Origin: Hymenobacter rubripertinctus
GTDB taxonomy: Bacteria; Bacteroidota; Bacteroidia; Cytophagales; Hymenobacteraceae
Direction: 5' to 3'
DNA length: 64,000 bases
Assembly: GCF_003583925.1 (NCBI RefSeq)
Contig: NZ_QYCN01000008.1
Span: 62,001 to 126,000, forward strand
Of this stretch, positions 19,613-25,850 are shown piece by piece. A program made the position numbers and the translations under genes. Every line of letters begins with the position of its first letter. Within the stretch, counting starts at the first letter, position 1. The notes below the pieces were generated by a model. It worked only from the letters and a program-made list of their open reading frames with translations, searched no databases and was not told the DNA's origin.

Positions 19613-21994
19613 ATGTTGGTAATCAAACGCGACGGCCGCCGCGAATCCGTGAAATTCGATAAAGTCACGGCCCGCATCGAAAAGCTCTGCTACGGGCTCA
19701 ACATGAACTTCGTGTCGCCGATTGAGGTGGCCAAAAAGGTGATTGACGGCATTTACGACGGCGTAACCACGATTGAGCTCGACAACCTGGCCGCCGAAAC
19801 GGCCGCCTCGCTCACCACCAAGCACCCCGACTACGCCATTCTGGCCGCCCGCATTGCCGTGAGCAACCTGCACAAGGTCACCAGCAAGTCGTTCAGCAGC
19901 ACCATGAAGCGGCTGCACACCTACGAGGACCCGAAAACGGGCGAAAACGCCTCGCTCGTGGCCCAGGACGTGTGGGAAATCGTGCACCAGCACGCCGCCA
20001 CCCTCGATTCGGCCATCATCTACGACCGCGACTACAACTACGACTACTTCGGCTTCAAAACCCTGGAACGCAGCTACCTGCTGCGCCTTGATGGCAAGGT
20101 GGTGGAGCGGCCCCAGCACATGCTCATGCGCGTGGCCGTGGGCATTCATAAGCAGGATATTGCCTCCGCCATTGAGACCTACGAGCTGATGAGCGAGCGG
20201 TGGTTTACCCACGCCACGCCCACGCTCTTCAACGCCGGCACGCCCAAGCCCCAGCTCAGCTCCTGCTTCCTGCTCACGATGAAGGACGACTCCATCGAAG
20301 GCATTTACGACACGCTGAAGAACTGCGCCCTGATTTCGCAGAGCGCCGGCGGCATCGGGCTGGCCGTGCACAACGTGCGGGCCACCGGCACCTACATCAA
20401 AGGCACCAACGGCACCTCCAACGGCCTCGTGCCCATGCTGAAGGTGTTCAACGACACGGCCCGCTACGTGGACCAGGGCGGCGGGAAGCGCAAGGGCGCT
20501 TTCGCCATTTACCTGGAGCCCTGGCACGCCGACATCTTCGACTTCTTGGATCTGAAAAAGAACCACGGCAAGGAGGAGATGCGCGCCCGCGACCTGTTTT
20601 TTGCCCTCTGGACGCCCGATTTGTTCATGAAGCGGGTGGAAGCCAACGGCGACTGGACGCTGATGTGTCCCCACGAGTGCCCGGGCCTCGACACCAGCCA
20701 CGGCGCCGAGTTCGAGAAGCTCTACCTCAAGTACGAGCGCGAAGGCAAGGGCCGCCGCACCATCAAGGCCCAGGAATTGTGGTTCGCCATCCTGGAAAGC
20801 CAGACCGAGACCGGCACGCCCTACATGCTGTTCAAGGACGCCGCCAACGGCAAGAGCAACCAGCAGAACCTCGGTACCATCAAGAGCTCCAACCTCTGCA
20901 CCGAGATTATGGAGTACACCGACGAAAACGAAATTGCGGTCTGCAACCTCGCCTCGCTGGCCCTGCCCCGCTACGTGCGCCCCGACGAGGCCGGCAACCT
21001 GTTCTTCGACCACCAGAAGCTCTATGACGTTACCTACCACGCCACGCTGAACCTGAACAAGGTTATCGACATCAACTACTACCCCGTTATCGAGGCCGAG
21101 CGTAGCAACCGTCGCCACCGCCCCATCGGGCTGGGCGTGCAGGGGCTGGCCGATACGTTTATTGCCCTGCGCATGCCCTTCGAGAGCGACGAAGCCAGCG
21201 GCCTGAACAAGGACATCTTCGAGACGCTGTACTTCGCGGCCATGACGGCCTCCAAGGACCTGGCCCAGCGCGACGGCCACTACGAAACCTTCCCCGGCTC
21301 GCCCCTGAGCGAGGGCAAGTTCCAGTTCGACCTCTGGGGCGTAACGCCCGACTCGGGCCGCTGGGACTGGGACACGCTGCGGGCCCAGGTAATGGAGCAC
21401 GGCGCGCGCAACTCGCTGCTGGTGGCCCCCATGCCCACGGCCAGTACCGCCCAGATTCTGGGCAACAACGAGTCGTTTGAGCCCTACACGAGCAACATTT
21501 ACGTGCGCCGGGTGCTCAGCGGCGAGTTTATGGTGGTGAATAAGCACCTGCTCAAGGACCTCATCAAGCTCGGCCTCTGGAACGAGCAGATGAAGACGGC
21601 TATCATTGCCGCCAACGGCTCGGTGCAGGACATTGCCAGCATCCCGCAAAACATCAAGGACCTGTACAAAACGGTGTGGGAGATTTCCCAGCGCCGCATC
21701 ATCGACATGTCGGCCGACCGGGGCGCGTACATCTGCCAGAGCCAGAGCCTGAACCTGCACGTGCTGAACGTGAACTTCGGCAAGCTCACCAGCATGCACT
21801 TCCACAGCTGGAAGCGGGGCCTGAAAACGGGCATGTACTACCTGCGCACCAAAGCCGCCGCCGACGCCATCAAGTTCACGGTGCAGAAGCAGGCCGCCGA
21901 AACCCTGGAGCCGCTCAACGTAGCCGCCCAAAACGCCTCGGACATGTCCTGCTCACTGGACGACCCGGAAGGCTGCGAGGCCTGCGGGTCGTAG
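19613..21994 (+). CDS. nrdA: Class Ia ribonucleotide reductase large subunit
   Basis: 793 aa. An N-terminal ATP-cone allosteric domain (about 1-95, [18 protein letters not shown]) precedes the ten-stranded barrel. Active-site features include the redox cysteine in PQLSSCFLL, the N-x-C-x-E motif in [10 protein letters not shown] and the C-terminal swinging pair CEACGS. The enzyme reduces ribonucleoside diphosphates using the radical supplied by NrdB. Full length, with no intein. It has its own upstream region because the preceding gene ends in a terminator. Confidence 0.97.
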
Positions 21995-22001
21995 GAAGTA
22001 G

Positions 22002-22067
22002 AACAACTAATCATATGAAAAGGGGGCTGCCAAACAAGGCAGCCCCCTTTTCATATGATTAGTTGTT
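22002..22067. terminator. Perfect 30-base inverted repeat between nrdA and the AAA+ gene
   Basis: The arms at 22002-22031 and 22038-22067 are exact complements with an AAACAA loop. The right arm contains the last codons and stop of the AAA+ ATPase gene (22059-22067), so the left arm is an inverted copy of that gene end. It should stop transcription from both sides. Confidence 0.9.
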
Positions 22068-23564
22068 CATTGCTGATAGTTGGTTAATTCTGGTGTCACC
22101 TTGAGTTGGTGTCAAAATAGCTGCCCGCTCTAGCTCCTGCTCTCGCCAGTAGCTTTCAAGAGCTATTTGACCACAACGTTCTTGAAATTGAGCAGGAGTT
22201 TCTTTTTTAAAATCTTGCCGTTCGATATATTCGATCATGGCCGCAAATTCACTGTCGTAACCATCTAAGATGCGTGAAGCCATAATTCTCATGTCCTCCG
22301 GTTCCATATAGCCCAATTCAATGGCCTTGTCAATTCTACCTGGCCGAGTAGAAATAACTTCACTAGCTCCGTCAGCAGCTTTACCAGGAATACCAAGTGC
22401 GCTATCAATTTTCGATAAGTCATTAGCTGTGATGATAGTAAAGATTCCACCAGCTTTTTCAATACCATCTAAACAATTAAGTAGGCAGTCAAATGTGAGA
22501 GGAGCCAAGGGGCCGTTTTGGGTGTTGTTCTCTTCACCCTCTTCTGTATTTGAAGATTGGACGAATGGCATAAAACCTACAGAACGACGGGAAACATTTT
22601 CTCGGCCGTGAAAAACATTGTCCATGTCCTCAATCAATGCAATGCAAGGAGTGTTAACCTGCATCTTTGCCCAAGCCTTCATCAAACCAGCATTGTCTAA
22701 CTGAGCTAAACTGAATACATAAATTGGCAAATGCATGTCCTCCGCGAAAGCCCTAGCTAATGCTGTCTTTCCTGTGCCAGGAAGCCCATACAGTAACCAC
22801 CCCCTTTTCCAAGGAATATTCTTGCTCTGGTACCATTCTTTGCTTTTATTCCAGCGCTCAATTTCTCCTATCAAGTCTTTAATCCTCTTAGGAAATATCA
22901 AATTATCCAGCGCTTTACCCGTGGAGACAGAAGCTCTTCCAAGAGCGTTGGAATCAATACCTACTAACCGATATTTTGCTTGCTCATACCAAGGTAATCC
23001 GTCAGAGGTTGGGGTATACTCATCTTGGGTTTCGCGCTTTTCTGGTACGTAGTAAATAGTGAAGCGAGATTCTTCAATTCCATCTTGGCTGATACGCCAA
23101 GTCGCATCGTTCTTGGCTTTGCATGCTGCGGTGATGATAAAATCTACGTTAAGAGTGCCACGCAGGAATGTAATGGTCGTAGTAGAAGAATTGTGCTCGT
23201 AAACATGATCATGATGAGAATCTTGGTTCTTACCATCATTGTTCTGATTATTAGAAAACCAAAAAGGCCATTTACCATTCCAAAAGATTATGGAGCGCTG
23301 CCCATACAATTCATATGGAGTTAAACCATACCGTCCATCTCTACGACTCTCGTTTACAGCACCGTAAACCTTGTCGTATACTCTAGAAAATTTATAATTA
23401 TTGATTAAGTAGGTAGTAAGAGCTGCCTGCATTCCGGCTGTTGGAATTTCTACTTGTTGAATAAAGAGACTGACTATACGCCATAAGACTGCTTTAATTT
23501 TATCCCAAAAGCCTACAACAGCGCTTAGAATGGCGCCGCCAGCAAAGTATTTTGTAAAATCCAT
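22059..23564 (-). CDS. BCS1-like membrane-anchored AAA+ ATPase
   Basis: 501 aa. Residues 8-36 are hydrophobic and could anchor the protein. Residues 40-230 form a BCS1-N-like region. The AAA+ domain has Walker A GLPGTGKT at 260-267, Walker B IALIED at 308-313, sensor-1 ITAND at 378-382 and RPGRID with the likely arginine finger at 407-412. Mitochondrial BCS1 moves the folded Rieske protein across a membrane. Bacterial homologues have no settled role and some lie in defence regions. The gene is clearly AT-rich against its neighbours, with AT-ending codons, which suggests recent acquisition. The ATG at 23564 was preferred over an upstream TTG. Confidence 0.88.
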   Translation of the reverse strand: MDFTKYFAGGAILSAVVGFWDKIKAVLWRIVSLFIQQVEIPTAGMQAALTTYLINNYKFSRVYDKVYGAVNESRRDGRYGLTPYELYGQRSIIFWNGKWPFWFSNNQNNDGKNQDSHHDHVYEHNSSTTTITFLRGTLNVDFIITAACKAKNDATWRISQDGIEESRFTIYYVPEKRETQDEYTPTSDGLPWYEQAKYRLVGIDSNALGRASVSTGKALDNLIFPKRIKDLIGEIERWNKSKEWYQSKNIPWKRGWLLYGLPGTGKTALARAFAEDMHLPIYVFSLAQLDNAGLMKAWAKMQVNTPCIALIEDMDNVFHGRENVSRRSVGFMPFVQSSNTEEGEENNTQNGPLAPLTFDCLLNCLDGIEKAGGIFTIITANDLSKIDSALGIPGKAADGASEVISTRPGRIDKAIELGYMEPEDMRIMASRILDGYDSEFAAMIEYIERQDFKKETPAQFQERCGQIALESYWREQELERAAILTPTQGDTRINQLSAMNN

Positions 23565-23632: not shown

Positions 23633-23679
23633 CCAGCCGCTGCCGCCCCCGGTAGCGGCTGGTTGGCGTTTGGGGGCGT
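23633..23679. repeat. 47-base repeat, copy 1, with internal palindrome
   Basis: CCAGCCGCTgccgccccCGGTAGCGGCTGG forms a hairpin (CCAGCCGCT with AGCGGCTGG), followed by GGCGTTTGGGG. A nearly identical copy lies at 24425-24472, so the repeat brackets the toxin-antitoxin pair. Confidence 0.85.
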
Positions 23680-23731: not shown

Positions 23732-23965
23732 ATGTCTGACCTGCTCGCCCGCATCACCGTCAATCCTGCCATCTGCCACGGCCAGCCTACCGTGCGGGGG
23801 CTGCGCTACCCGGTGCAGAACGTGCTGGAACTGCTGGCCTCCGGGATGACGGACGCGGAGATTCTGGCGGATTATGAGGACCTAGAAGCCGCCGACCTCC
23901 GCGCTTGCCAGGCCTACGCGGCGGAGCTGCTCAAAACCAAAACCTTCTACCGTCTGGCTTCCTGA
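23732..23965 (+). CDS. DUF433 antitoxin-like protein
   Basis: 77 aa. The sequence ITVNPAICHGQPTVRGLRYP is the DUF433 hallmark, and the C-terminal half predicts a helical DNA-binding fold. DUF433 proteins pair with PIN-like DUF5615 proteins as VapBC-type toxin-antitoxin modules. The stop codon overlaps the next start (TGATG), the usual arrangement for coupled translation. A TACTTTAG promoter-like element lies 10 bases before the ATG. It probably neutralises the partner and represses the operon. Confidence 0.85.
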   Translation: MSDLLARITVNPAICHGQPTVRGLRYPVQNVLELLASGMTDAEILADYEDLEAADLRACQAYAAELLKTKTFYRLAS

Positions 23966-24336
23966 TGACGCCCTCGCTGGTGAAGGTGCTGGTAGATGCC
24001 CAGTTGCCCCGGCATCTGGCGCGCTGGCTGGCCCATGAGGCGGGCTTCGACGCCCTGCACACCTTCGACCTGCCCGCCGCCAACAACACAGCCGACGAGA
24101 GCATCAACGACTTATCGGTGCGTGAAAGCCGGGTCGTGATTACCAAGGACGCTGATTTCGTCAACTCATTTATCCTGCACGGCCGGCCCTACAAGCTGCT
24201 GCTGGTTTCGACGGGCAACATGCGCACCGACGACTTGGTGAACCTGTTTCGTCAGTACTTACCCCAGCTGACCAAGGCGCCACAGTGGCACAGCTACCTG
24301 GAATTATCGCGGGAGCAGTTACTGATTCATCGGTAG
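23965..24336 (+). CDS. DUF5615 PIN-like toxin
   Basis: 123 aa PIN-like nuclease. Acidic residues expected for metal binding appear at D11 (KVLVDAQLP), in NTADESINDLS and in VVITKDADF. The overall layout matches DUF5615 (Mut7-C-like) toxins, which are predicted RNases. The ATG at 23965 overlaps the antitoxin stop by one base. An earlier in-frame start would lie inside the antitoxin gene. It is part of the accessory segment flanked by 47-base repeats. Confidence 0.82.
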   Translation: MTPSLVKVLVDAQLPRHLARWLAHEAGFDALHTFDLPAANNTADESINDLSVRESRVVITKDADFVNSFILHGRPYKLLLVSTGNMRTDDLVNLFRQYLPQLTKAPQWHSYLELSREQLLIHR

Positions 24337-24424: not shown

Positions 24425-24472
24425 CCAGCCGCTGCCGCCCCCGGTAGCGGCTGGTGGGCGTTTGGGGCGTTT
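24425..24472. repeat. 47-base repeat, copy 2
   Basis: Same sequence and internal palindrome as 23633-23679, in the same orientation and 792 bases away. One base differs inside (TTGG against TGGG) and one G is missing from the G-run. Confidence 0.85.
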
Positions 24473-24489
24473 GCTGCTACCTTGCCGCC

Positions 24490-24924
24490 GTGCGCTACCG
24501 AACTGCTTCCGCTTCGTCTTACCCCTGGCCCGTGCGGGTGGTGCTGGCCATCTACTCCGCTTGCTTCCTGATTGGGACCTACACCCACGCGGCGGGTATT
24601 TTGCGGCGGGGGCTGCTGGCCTCGCCGGTGCCGGTGGGCATTGGGGTGTTCTGGGATGCCCTGACGCTGCTCGACCCGCTGGCGGCGGTGCTGGTGTGGT
24701 GGCGGCCGCGCCTGGGCCTACCGCTGGCCGTGGCTATTATGGCGGCCGATATCAGCGTGAACAGCTACGTGTATGTGGCCGGCTACTTCGGGCCGCCGGC
24801 AGCGGGGCTGGTGCCGCTGAGTTTGTTGGAGCAGGCGCTGTTCGGGGTGTTCGTATTCGTAACCGCCCCAGGGGTGTATGGGCGGAATCCATCTGACGCG
24901 AGTTTAGCGAAGCACGACTCGTGA
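24490..24924 (+). CDS. Small multi-pass membrane protein, hypothetical
   Basis: 144 aa with four hydrophobic segments (about residues 15-30, 45-65, 75-95 and 105-125) and short loops. It resembles uncharacterised DoxX-like or small integral membrane proteins, but no motif is decisive. The GTG at 24490 was chosen because the only upstream in-frame start lies inside the 47-base repeat; a TACCTTG element sits just before it. The function is unknown. Confidence 0.65.
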   Translation: MRYRTASASSYPWPVRVVLAIYSACFLIGTYTHAAGILRRGLLASPVPVGIGVFWDALTLLDPLAAVLVWWRPRLGLPLAVAIMAADISVNSYVYVAGYFGPPAAGLVPLSLLEQALFGVFVFVTAPGVYGRNPSDASLAKHDS

Positions 24925-25321
24925 CCAACCTCAAGGTAGAGGCTGTCCTGCTCCTGCCGCCGTGCGGCAAGCCGGAACCGCGCCGCCAGGAGAAATCCGG
25001 GCGGCATTTTTCGTTCGGACAAGGGAGGCCTAACCTCCCGGGAGGCGTACCCACTTCAGGAAGTGTATAGGCCCGGGGGTGCAGGCCTTAATACCTGCGT
25101 TTCGGCGACCCGGAAGTACCGCGCCAGTTAGCCAACAGGGGGGTATGGGACAGAGTAGGTATGGGACAAAGATTTTTGTCCCATACCTACTCTGTCCCAT
25201 ACCCCCCTCCCCATGCGTGCCATCGGCCCCCGCCCATCCTCGGGGCCGCCCCTGCGTGGCTGCCTGGATATTGGATCAGGACTTACGCACTGGGCGTTTG
25301 TCATTGGCGGAACTGCTCCAT
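24925..25321. other. Non-coding stretch in the accessory region
   Basis: No supported gene. The first part holds short GC-rich stems (for example GGGAGGCCTAACCTCCCGGG). A long palindrome lies at 25138-25207. GGACTTACGCAC near 25279 resembles a common insertion-sequence end, but I see no partner end. Confidence 0.4.
25138..25207. repeat. Perfect 33-base inverted repeat
   Basis: The arms at 25138-25170 and 25175-25207 are exact complements around a 4-base loop. Each arm holds two tandem TATGGGACA units (GGTATGGGACAGAGTAGGTA). It has no gene directly before it, so a simple terminator role is doubtful. Confidence 0.9.
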
Positions 25322-25805
25322 AGTTACCTCCTACCCCTGAGGGGCCGAACGCGGCTCCGGTTGCTAAATCCCGTACCGGGCAGCGGCCCACCAGCGCCGG
25401 GCCGCTGGCCGCACTGGCCACCAACGCCGCCCGCGCCTGGGCCGCCTCCGAGCTACTGCCCTGCTCTGGCTCTCCAAGGCCGAGCTGACGGCCCTGGCCG
25501 CCGCTTTCGCCCAGGGCCGCGACGCTGCCGATGCCGCCGGCGACCAGCGCACGCCCCAGTCGCGCCGGCTCCAGGAGCTGGACCGGCAGCTCGGTAAGAG
25601 CCTCAAGTACGTGAAGGGCTACCTGGCCGAGGAGCACGAGGACGATGCGGGCCGCGCCTGCTTCCCCGAGTTTGGGATTGAGCGCGAAAATGAGAGCTAC
25701 CGCCTGCCCGCCACCCGCCCCGAGCGTCTAAAAGCCGTGCAGCAACTGCTGGCTGCCCTCCCCACCCACGGCTTCTACCAGAAGAAGTACGGCACCGCCT
25801 ACTAG
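25322..25805 (+). pseudogene. Frameshifted hypothetical gene
   Basis: Two coding-like segments lie in different frames. The first, from 25324, reads LPPTPEGPNAAPVAKS and continues to WAASELL near 25464. The second continues one frame away as ALLWLSKAELTALAAAF and runs to the stop at 25805, ending HGFYQKKYGTAY. The join near 25460-25470 needs one base shift. No start codon is found for the first segment. The second contains KYVKGYLAEEHEDD and has normal codon use. I do not recognise the protein. The parts read as one interrupted gene, possibly truncated at the 5' end. Confidence 0.5.
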
Positions 25806-25850
25806 CATCCGCGACGCGACGAGCGAAGCGCGTACCGTATAGAAGGCTAT

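Follow-up and report, generated by a model that had tools for sequence, protein, structure and literature searches.

What is an AT-rich gene for a BCS1-like AAA+ ATPase doing directly behind the ribonucleotide reductase gene nrdA of Hymenobacter rubripertinctus, and does it belong to the defences of its host? The locus was studied within a 64,000-nucleotide stretch of DNA, here called the window, and its features are collected in Table 1. The gene is most likely a horizontally acquired one, the first cassette of an exchangeable array that is anchored at nrdA and delimited by a palindromic repeat, R. We lean, by a little, towards reading it as a defence gene in a defence hotspot, given its position and one relative that sits inside a restriction operon. 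The main discovery is the slot rather than the gene alone. Defence genes are usually found via their neighbours; here one fixed slot behind nrdA samples variable foreign genes throughout the genus, and therefore each uncharacterised tenant, including the BCS1-like ATPase, becomes a candidate to be screened for defence. The slot has the look of an exchange array not described before. Among the papers listed in searches of the mostly open literature there was no report of a bacterial BCS1-like defence protein or of an nrdA defence array, and no paper that pairs "Hymenobacter" with "phage defense".

Table 1. Features of the nrdA slot in the window (positions count from its first letter).
Feature	Position	Strand	Basis and remarks
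nrdA, ribonucleotide reductase large chain, fixed left anchor	19613..21994	+	Pfam Ribonuc_red_lgC, E 3.7e-212
Perfect long hairpin, terminator-like, between the convergent nrdA and BCS1-like gene	21997..22074	.	includes the stop codon of the BCS1-like gene
BCS1-like AAA+ ATPase, cassette 1	22059..23564	-	501 aa, ATG start, intact ORF
Repeat R, copy 1	23633..23675	+	palindrome core 23635-23662; DNA fold z -2.17
DUF433 (COG2442) antitoxin-like gene, cassette 2	23732..23965	+	77 aa; PF04255, E 4.5e-24
DUF5615/Mut7-C PIN-like toxin candidate	23965..24336	+	PF18480, E 5.8e-20 on a longer TTG-started ORF
Repeat R, copy 2	24425..24467	+	palindrome core 24427-24454
Block conserved in near relatives, after the cargo	24459..24883	+	blastn 83-91% in 5 of 11 loci (L264, L267, L268, L269, L275)

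The protein is a BCS1-like ATPase, as the initial annotation had proposed from the letters alone, and its best sequence matches in the PDB are to mitochondrial BCS1 (E 2.7e-15). The AAA domain is matched by PF00004 in Pfam (E 2.2e-13). Across 62 aligned sequences the P-loop residues G263-K266, the residues E312-D313-D315, N381 and the arginines R407/R410 are invariant, with T264/T267 nearly so, such that the Walker A, Walker B, sensor-1 and arginine-finger motifs are indeed intact. The hydrophobic N-terminus that had also been described is present yet modest, with a 19-residue hydropathy maximum of 1.22 (33 of 74 proteins, the query among the 74, reach at least 1.6). BCS1_N, which we take to be the Pfam model for the Bcs1 middle domain, is absent among the families matched at E<=0.1, and therefore the sequence model by itself does not reveal such a domain.

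An AlphaFold2 model was built from the 62-sequence alignment, with a mean pLDDT of 86.1 and a pTM of 0.80. The model places helices at residues 3-18 and 20-34, and predicts the BCS1 fold, namely an N-terminal helix, a Bcs1-type middle domain and an AAA domain. The same parts follow in the same order in the mitochondrial AAA+ translocase BCS1/Bcs1L (PDB 8tp1 and 6uks), which differs in that it shares about 20% identity with the present, bacterial, protein. BCS1 aligns with model residues 1-473 (Z 20.0, rmsd 5.9, 376 residues aligned). YjoB from Bacillus subtilis (PDB 7w42) has the same fold at 21% identity, but its alignment covers residues 36-476 of the model (Z 18.5) and so leaves out the N-terminal helix. 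Generic AAA proteins reach a Z of 17-18 over the AAA part, so that BCS1 leads by a small margin in Z. The separation is clearer in Foldseek, where BCS1 has an E of 2.7e-20 and other AAA proteins about 1e-10. Among predicted viral structures, the closest is an ATPase of Tenacibaculum phage PTm1 (E 5.7e-21). The ATPase is probably anchored in the membrane.

Searches with the PADLOC and NCBIfam models assigned the protein to no family. Membership in the IetAS system was rejected, given that the best stretches of similarity to IetA lie within residues 213-317, which is the P-loop region only, that the NCBIfam IteA model scores 25.7 bits against a cut-off of 510, and that Pfam finds no subtilase partner among the ten proteins scanned as neighbours or anchors.

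The composition of the gene is foreign. Its GC content of 0.42 and GC3 of 0.373 compare with 0.616 and 0.895 for nrdA, and windows of 1 kb fall to 0.42-0.43 over the gene and are mostly 0.58-0.68 away from it, in agreement with the earlier remark that it is far more AT-rich than its surroundings. The gene is also alone in its genus. The 119 other congeneric genomes hold generic AAA matches only, at E 5.6e-6 or weaker, and one of them holds none; among 395 genomes of the phylum, the source genome alone reaches E 1e-15. The gene is therefore not one that all relatives conserve at the same place with host-like composition, the picture that the initial annotation had set against its own reading.

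A scan of genome contigs with the single protein found no relative. Relatives were retrieved once those in phages had given a closer alignment, by scans that use short peptide patterns and are not exhaustive. The alignment scan recovered 18 viral loci and 64 genome loci with relatives, a non-exhaustive count. Identity to the BCS1-like protein is mostly 50-56% in Gemmataceae and their kin, with a second group at 39-42%, is 42-49% in scattered Bacteroidota, and is mostly 31-35% in other Planctomycetes. The protein belongs to a rare BCS1-like subfamily of Planctomycetes, scattered Bacteroidota and large phages. A tree of 81 rows places the query beside the Bacteroidota clade, as its sister (SH-aLRT 98*), Gemmataceae come next and viral contigs branch deeper; the tree is a quick one with several long branches, and its values are SH-aLRT supports without bootstrap. 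Duplicates, fragments and off-family loci (L161, L163, L227, L165, L187, L202, L229, L232, L223) were omitted from it, and further loci were removed by a length or match filter.

That large phages carry such proteins raises the reading that the gene is phage-derived, a relict or moron of a large phage that helps membrane-proximal virion assembly and has no role in host defence. INPHARED contains distant relatives in 133 phage records, none of which spans over 80% of the protein, and the deep branches of the tree are the viral contigs. The jumbo-phage proteins that match phrog_7485, such as those of Tenacibaculum pT24 and Salmonella Munch, are laid out alike, from N-terminal helix through middle region to AAA domain; they are phage genes, share 22-29% identity over the matched part among the matches listed, and lack a 15-residue insert before the arginine fingers. 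A part in virion assembly has been proposed for phage BCS1 in the accessible part of one report (PMC7824862), which also weighs against the defence reading. A terminase is matched in 5 of the 14 viral records with relatives, by a model that also matches 11 of 14 control genomes. Against a phage origin, the closest sequences found are bacterial, apart from one short viral contig at 48% identity (L153), and the query groups with Bacteroidota in the quick tree. Neither is any phage family matched by Pfam among the ten neighbours and anchors scanned, and the gene occupies a slot with many defence genes. We consider this origin improbable. As a genome search, phrog_7485 itself was useless, matching all of 296 genomes and all of 14 controls, we believe because its AAA part matches FtsH-type proteins. 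A protein of phage Tunturi_5 that is annotated as "major head protein" (L033:2413-3642, PP885688.1) aligns as a BCS1-like AAA+ protein and is likely misannotated.

The protein could instead be a chaperone or translocase for host membrane proteins, with a house or stress function, that was merely inserted at a permissive site. The available text of PMC11143374 describes BCS1 as a translocase of the folded Rieske protein, and YjoB of B. subtilis shares the fold. Many of the 64 genome loci come from Gemmataceae and their kin and have no fixed neighbour in the maps read; 13 planctomycete maps, examined by eye, revealed neither a constant neighbour nor a clear defence gene, which fits a house function. 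Against a house gene speak its presence in one of 120 congeners, the source itself, the alien composition and a slot shared with many defence-type tenants. This reading is judged quite improbable.

The evidence for the slot comes from comparison of the DNA behind nrdA throughout the genus. Homology with 11 near relatives stops at 21993-22025, no further than about 30 bases from the stop codon of nrdA. Of 120 genomes, three were excluded, one without an nrdA match (G095) and two with short chance matches (G093, G099), which leaves 117 loci from 116 congeners and the source; for the GC counts one locus with 811 bases downstream was dropped. The control was the DNA that follows an ftsH-like gene in 40 genomes from the genus, the name of the gene being drawn from an AAA match that falls in an ORF some 700 aa long. 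In 103 of 116 genomes, the source included, the first 2 kb past the nrdA stop contain a 500-bp window below 45% GC, and in none of 40 controls (Fisher p 3e-26). AT-rich ORFs of 150 aa or more are present there in 92 of 116 genomes and 1 of 40 controls (Fisher 5e-19), where the control stretches are 3 kb and the cargo stretches up to 8 kb. The first AT-rich cargo ORF starts a median of 83 bases past the nrdA stop, and in 94 genomes the first cargo falls into 55 sequence clusters, the largest of 5 genomes. An insertion hotspot had been proposed from the window, and the evidence for it, including defence families among the cargo, is stronger than was then suggested.

The core defence hotspots of Pseudomonas aeruginosa, as portrayed in the accessible text of PMC10250203, likewise combine a conserved flank with variable defence cargo. 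The nrdA slot differs from the core-gene hotspots in that portion of the report by a boundary at the stop codon of a coding gene, by mostly one to three AT-rich cargo genes nearby and by a locus-specific palindromic repeat between cassettes. The hairpin that lies between nrdA and the BCS1-like gene folds as RNA at -59.9 kcal/mol (z -14.3). A strain-specific hairpin was rejected as a telling feature of the slot, given that hairpins follow the stops in 114 of 117 nrdA loci and in all 40 controls. AT-rich DNA behind nrdA may extend beyond the genus, which is suggested by a 500-bp window of at most 0.41 GC in the 2.5 kb after nrdA in 11 of 12 genomes from other genera of the family (L440-L451). 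Two of 20 nrdA matches in the sample from outside the genus, both near contig ends, were dropped (G194, G311). By eye, six genomes of another family had no GC contrast after nrdA.

Some units can, it seems, enter the slot with an nrdA tail of their own. A diverged duplicate of the nrdA end, covering its last 108-133 bases, is found 0.5-6.5 kb downstream in 16 of 117 loci (L284-L299) and in no control. The copies lie on the same strand and end at or next to the stop, for example at about 840-956 in L284. In five of these loci the ORFs were read, and an AT-rich gene follows the copy in at least three; between nrdA and the copy are a 110-aa ORF in two and, in two, a pair that is presumably HicA/HicB-like. 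No such tail copy turned up in the window when it was searched for one.

The cassettes are marked out by R, a 43-bp palindromic repeat with a core of the form TTCC-palindrome-TGTGTTTTTGGGG. The two copies in the window have identical 28-bp cores, of which none is expected by shuffling. With a strict regular expression for the palindrome, 121 copies are counted in 56 of 117 loci and not one in the 40 controls. An iterated profile at E 0.01 detects R-like repeats in 60 of the 117 loci and in no control, and at E 0.001 places 194 of 198 matches on the nrdA strand; the profile drifted into flanking sequence during iteration, so its counts may be inflated and those of the regular expression are stricter. 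Patterns that allow up to 2 or 3 mismatches, applied to whole genomes, give 37 copies in 20 genomes, of which 36 sit on the nrdA strand, no more than about 8 kb past the gene. The remaining copy (G035:C89:162-189) is near a contig start, and given that the nrdA contig of that genome ends about 1 kb past nrdA, it may belong to the same locus. The same pattern occurs in 12 of 33 congeners and in none of 258 genomes of other genera in the order, and it was not found in the sampled genera of the family that have AT-rich DNA after nrdA.

R delimits many cassettes. Its spacing has a median of 966 bp, and of 70 AT-rich cargo ORFs 34 finish no more than 150 nt ahead of the next R. In 21 long loci, all 80 copies found by the regular expression lie within 12 kb of nrdA, and two more, at 14 and 15 kb, match a looser pattern. 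Mean GC per kilobase rises with distance from nrdA (0.447, 0.478, 0.574, 0.603, 0.613), as would be expected if new cassettes enter beside nrdA. The samples for the long loci and for this gradient are non-random, with loci mostly chosen for R (19 of 20 fetched long loci carry it); likewise, 16 of the first 40 loci were fetched for carrying a copy of the nrdA tail. R could also be a terminator, since a run of T follows the hairpin. That R separates cassettes and is specific to one locus goes beyond what had been noted for the window before.

A dispersed REP/RAYT element was rejected as the identity of R, given the confinement of 36 of 37 copies to the nrdA locus and its strand. In integron cassette arrays and CALINs, tandem units of about 1 kb are separated by a palindromic repeat in one orientation, with a composition gradient away from an anchor, and the core motif of the integron attC site is GTTRRRY. 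The nrdA array resembles them in its tandem units of about 1 kb, its one-orientation repeat and its gradient. It differs in that GTTRRRY is found within 120 nt downstream in 13 of 142 copies of R, about chance by estimate, and in that the anchor is the same gene throughout the genus; RYYYAAC is found upstream in 3 of 142 copies. An attC identity was rejected on the core motif only. In the list of ORFs for 17-31 kb of the window, read by eye, no integron integrase was noticed. The specificity of R for this locus raises the question of what moves the cassettes, if not an integron integrase. They are probably exchanged by recombination, which would use nrdA as its left end and R as its right end and would not need an integrase.

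Between the two R copies of the window lies the second cassette, a pair of overlapping genes in which the ATG of the toxin candidate, read from the sequence, overlaps the stop of the DUF433 gene (TGATG). The pair fits a DUF433-PIN toxin-antitoxin architecture, with a putative activity, and the toxin candidate also matches the PF01927 and PIN_10 models of Pfam. Pairs of PIN and COG2442 (DUF433) proteins are known as toxin-antitoxin systems from the accessible part of PMC2701414, with DUF433 adjoining a PIN-like gene, as here. Relative to the pairs in that part of the source, the present toxin matches DUF5615/Mut7-C/PIN_10 models and the pair is set as a cassette between copies of R. The initial annotation had listed a DUF433/PIN-like pair and, as a separate item, a repeat-bracketed segment; the pair is borne out and the repeats are real, but the segment that they bracket is the pair itself.

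Throughout the genus, the slot appears to be rich in defence genes. The cargo scanned consists of 154 AT-rich ORFs from 102 genomes, in three sets that exclude the BCS1-like gene. Pfam memberships, of which a single ORF can hold several, include DUF3800 (at least 10), AAA_15 (at least 6), SIR2_2 and Abi_C (at least 5 each), DUF4365 and SUKH-3 (at least 4 each) and SLFN_AlbA_2, or Schlafen (at least 3). At least two each were found for RloB, DCD (dCTP deaminase), PIN_8, KAP, GmrSD, OLD TOPRIM, RVT_1 (reverse transcriptase) and DUF2806, and at least one each for AbiTii, CAP12/Pycsar TIR, HEPN, Mrr and DUF4062. At E<=1e-4, 219, 139 and 268 PADLOC models are matched in the three sets, with many models per system, and the best match is AbiLi at E 8.2e-86. 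No PADLOC model is matched in 76 proteins from downstream of the ftsH-like gene, a control that is weak because these form only 8 clusters, against 87 in the cargo. Defence-type memberships number about 50 among the matches listed, which leaves most of the 154 ORFs with none listed; there are ORFs that match SUKH-3 or DUF2806 and others that match nothing. These two points would also suit a neutral sink, in which AT-rich foreign DNA gathers behind nrdA and carries the defence genes common in mobile DNA anyway, but the precise left boundary and the locus-specific R point to a defined site, and the defence families span a wide range. A neutral sink is held to be quite improbable as well.

Given a slot that appears rich in defence genes across the genus, an anti-phage function is the most likely role of the BCS1-like gene. 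The initial annotation had suggested that the protein could be a defence factor, and the suggestion is supported by the slot and by a relative of 48% identity in Flavobacterium sedimenticola (L193:6740-18892). The latter lies in a type I restriction locus with the order HsdM, HsdS, BCS1-like, GmrSD, GmrSD, HsdR-like. In Segatella baroniae (L194), the relative follows a MobA-type relaxase. Other contexts speak differently. In six Bacteroidota loci (L196, L200, L201, L203, L204, L205) the relative lies beside two shared neighbour families, of which one is an S41 peptidase in the single member tested and the other has no Pfam match in either of two members scanned. Small peptides, some of them bearing cysteine motifs, also occur in four of the six, and the operon may be a peptide-maturation system. 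These contexts, with those of the planctomycetes, count against a purely defensive role of the whole subfamily. The orientation of the gene in the window also weighs against the defence reading: it is one of 7 first cargo ORFs opposite to nrdA, unlike the 88 of 95 on the nrdA strand.

If the BCS1-like gene does act against phages, it may do so as follows. The protein would assemble at the inner membrane into a heptameric ring, in the manner of BCS1, and during infection would grip, at the membrane, a protein that is made by the phage or induced by infection. It would then extract or translocate the gripped protein with ATP, which would either block phage assembly or open the membrane and kill the cell. 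We offer this grip-and-extract action tentatively and consider it rather unlikely in these particulars. A broader proposal, possible though on the unlikely side, is that nrdA and R form a new cassette-exchange system and that the protein is a new membrane-acting anti-phage effector. Under it, a genus-wide array would be anchored at the stop of a core gene, R would be a recombination site without an integron core, and defence genes would enter beside nrdA and push older cassettes outward.

The ORF at 24454-24921, which covers the conserved block of Table 1, has no Pfam match. Further on, positions 25316-25812 of the window have matches of 73-82% in four genomes (G079, G001, G003, G054), downstream of their cargo, and this stretch is perhaps part of a decayed region that had been noted earlier as a remnant.
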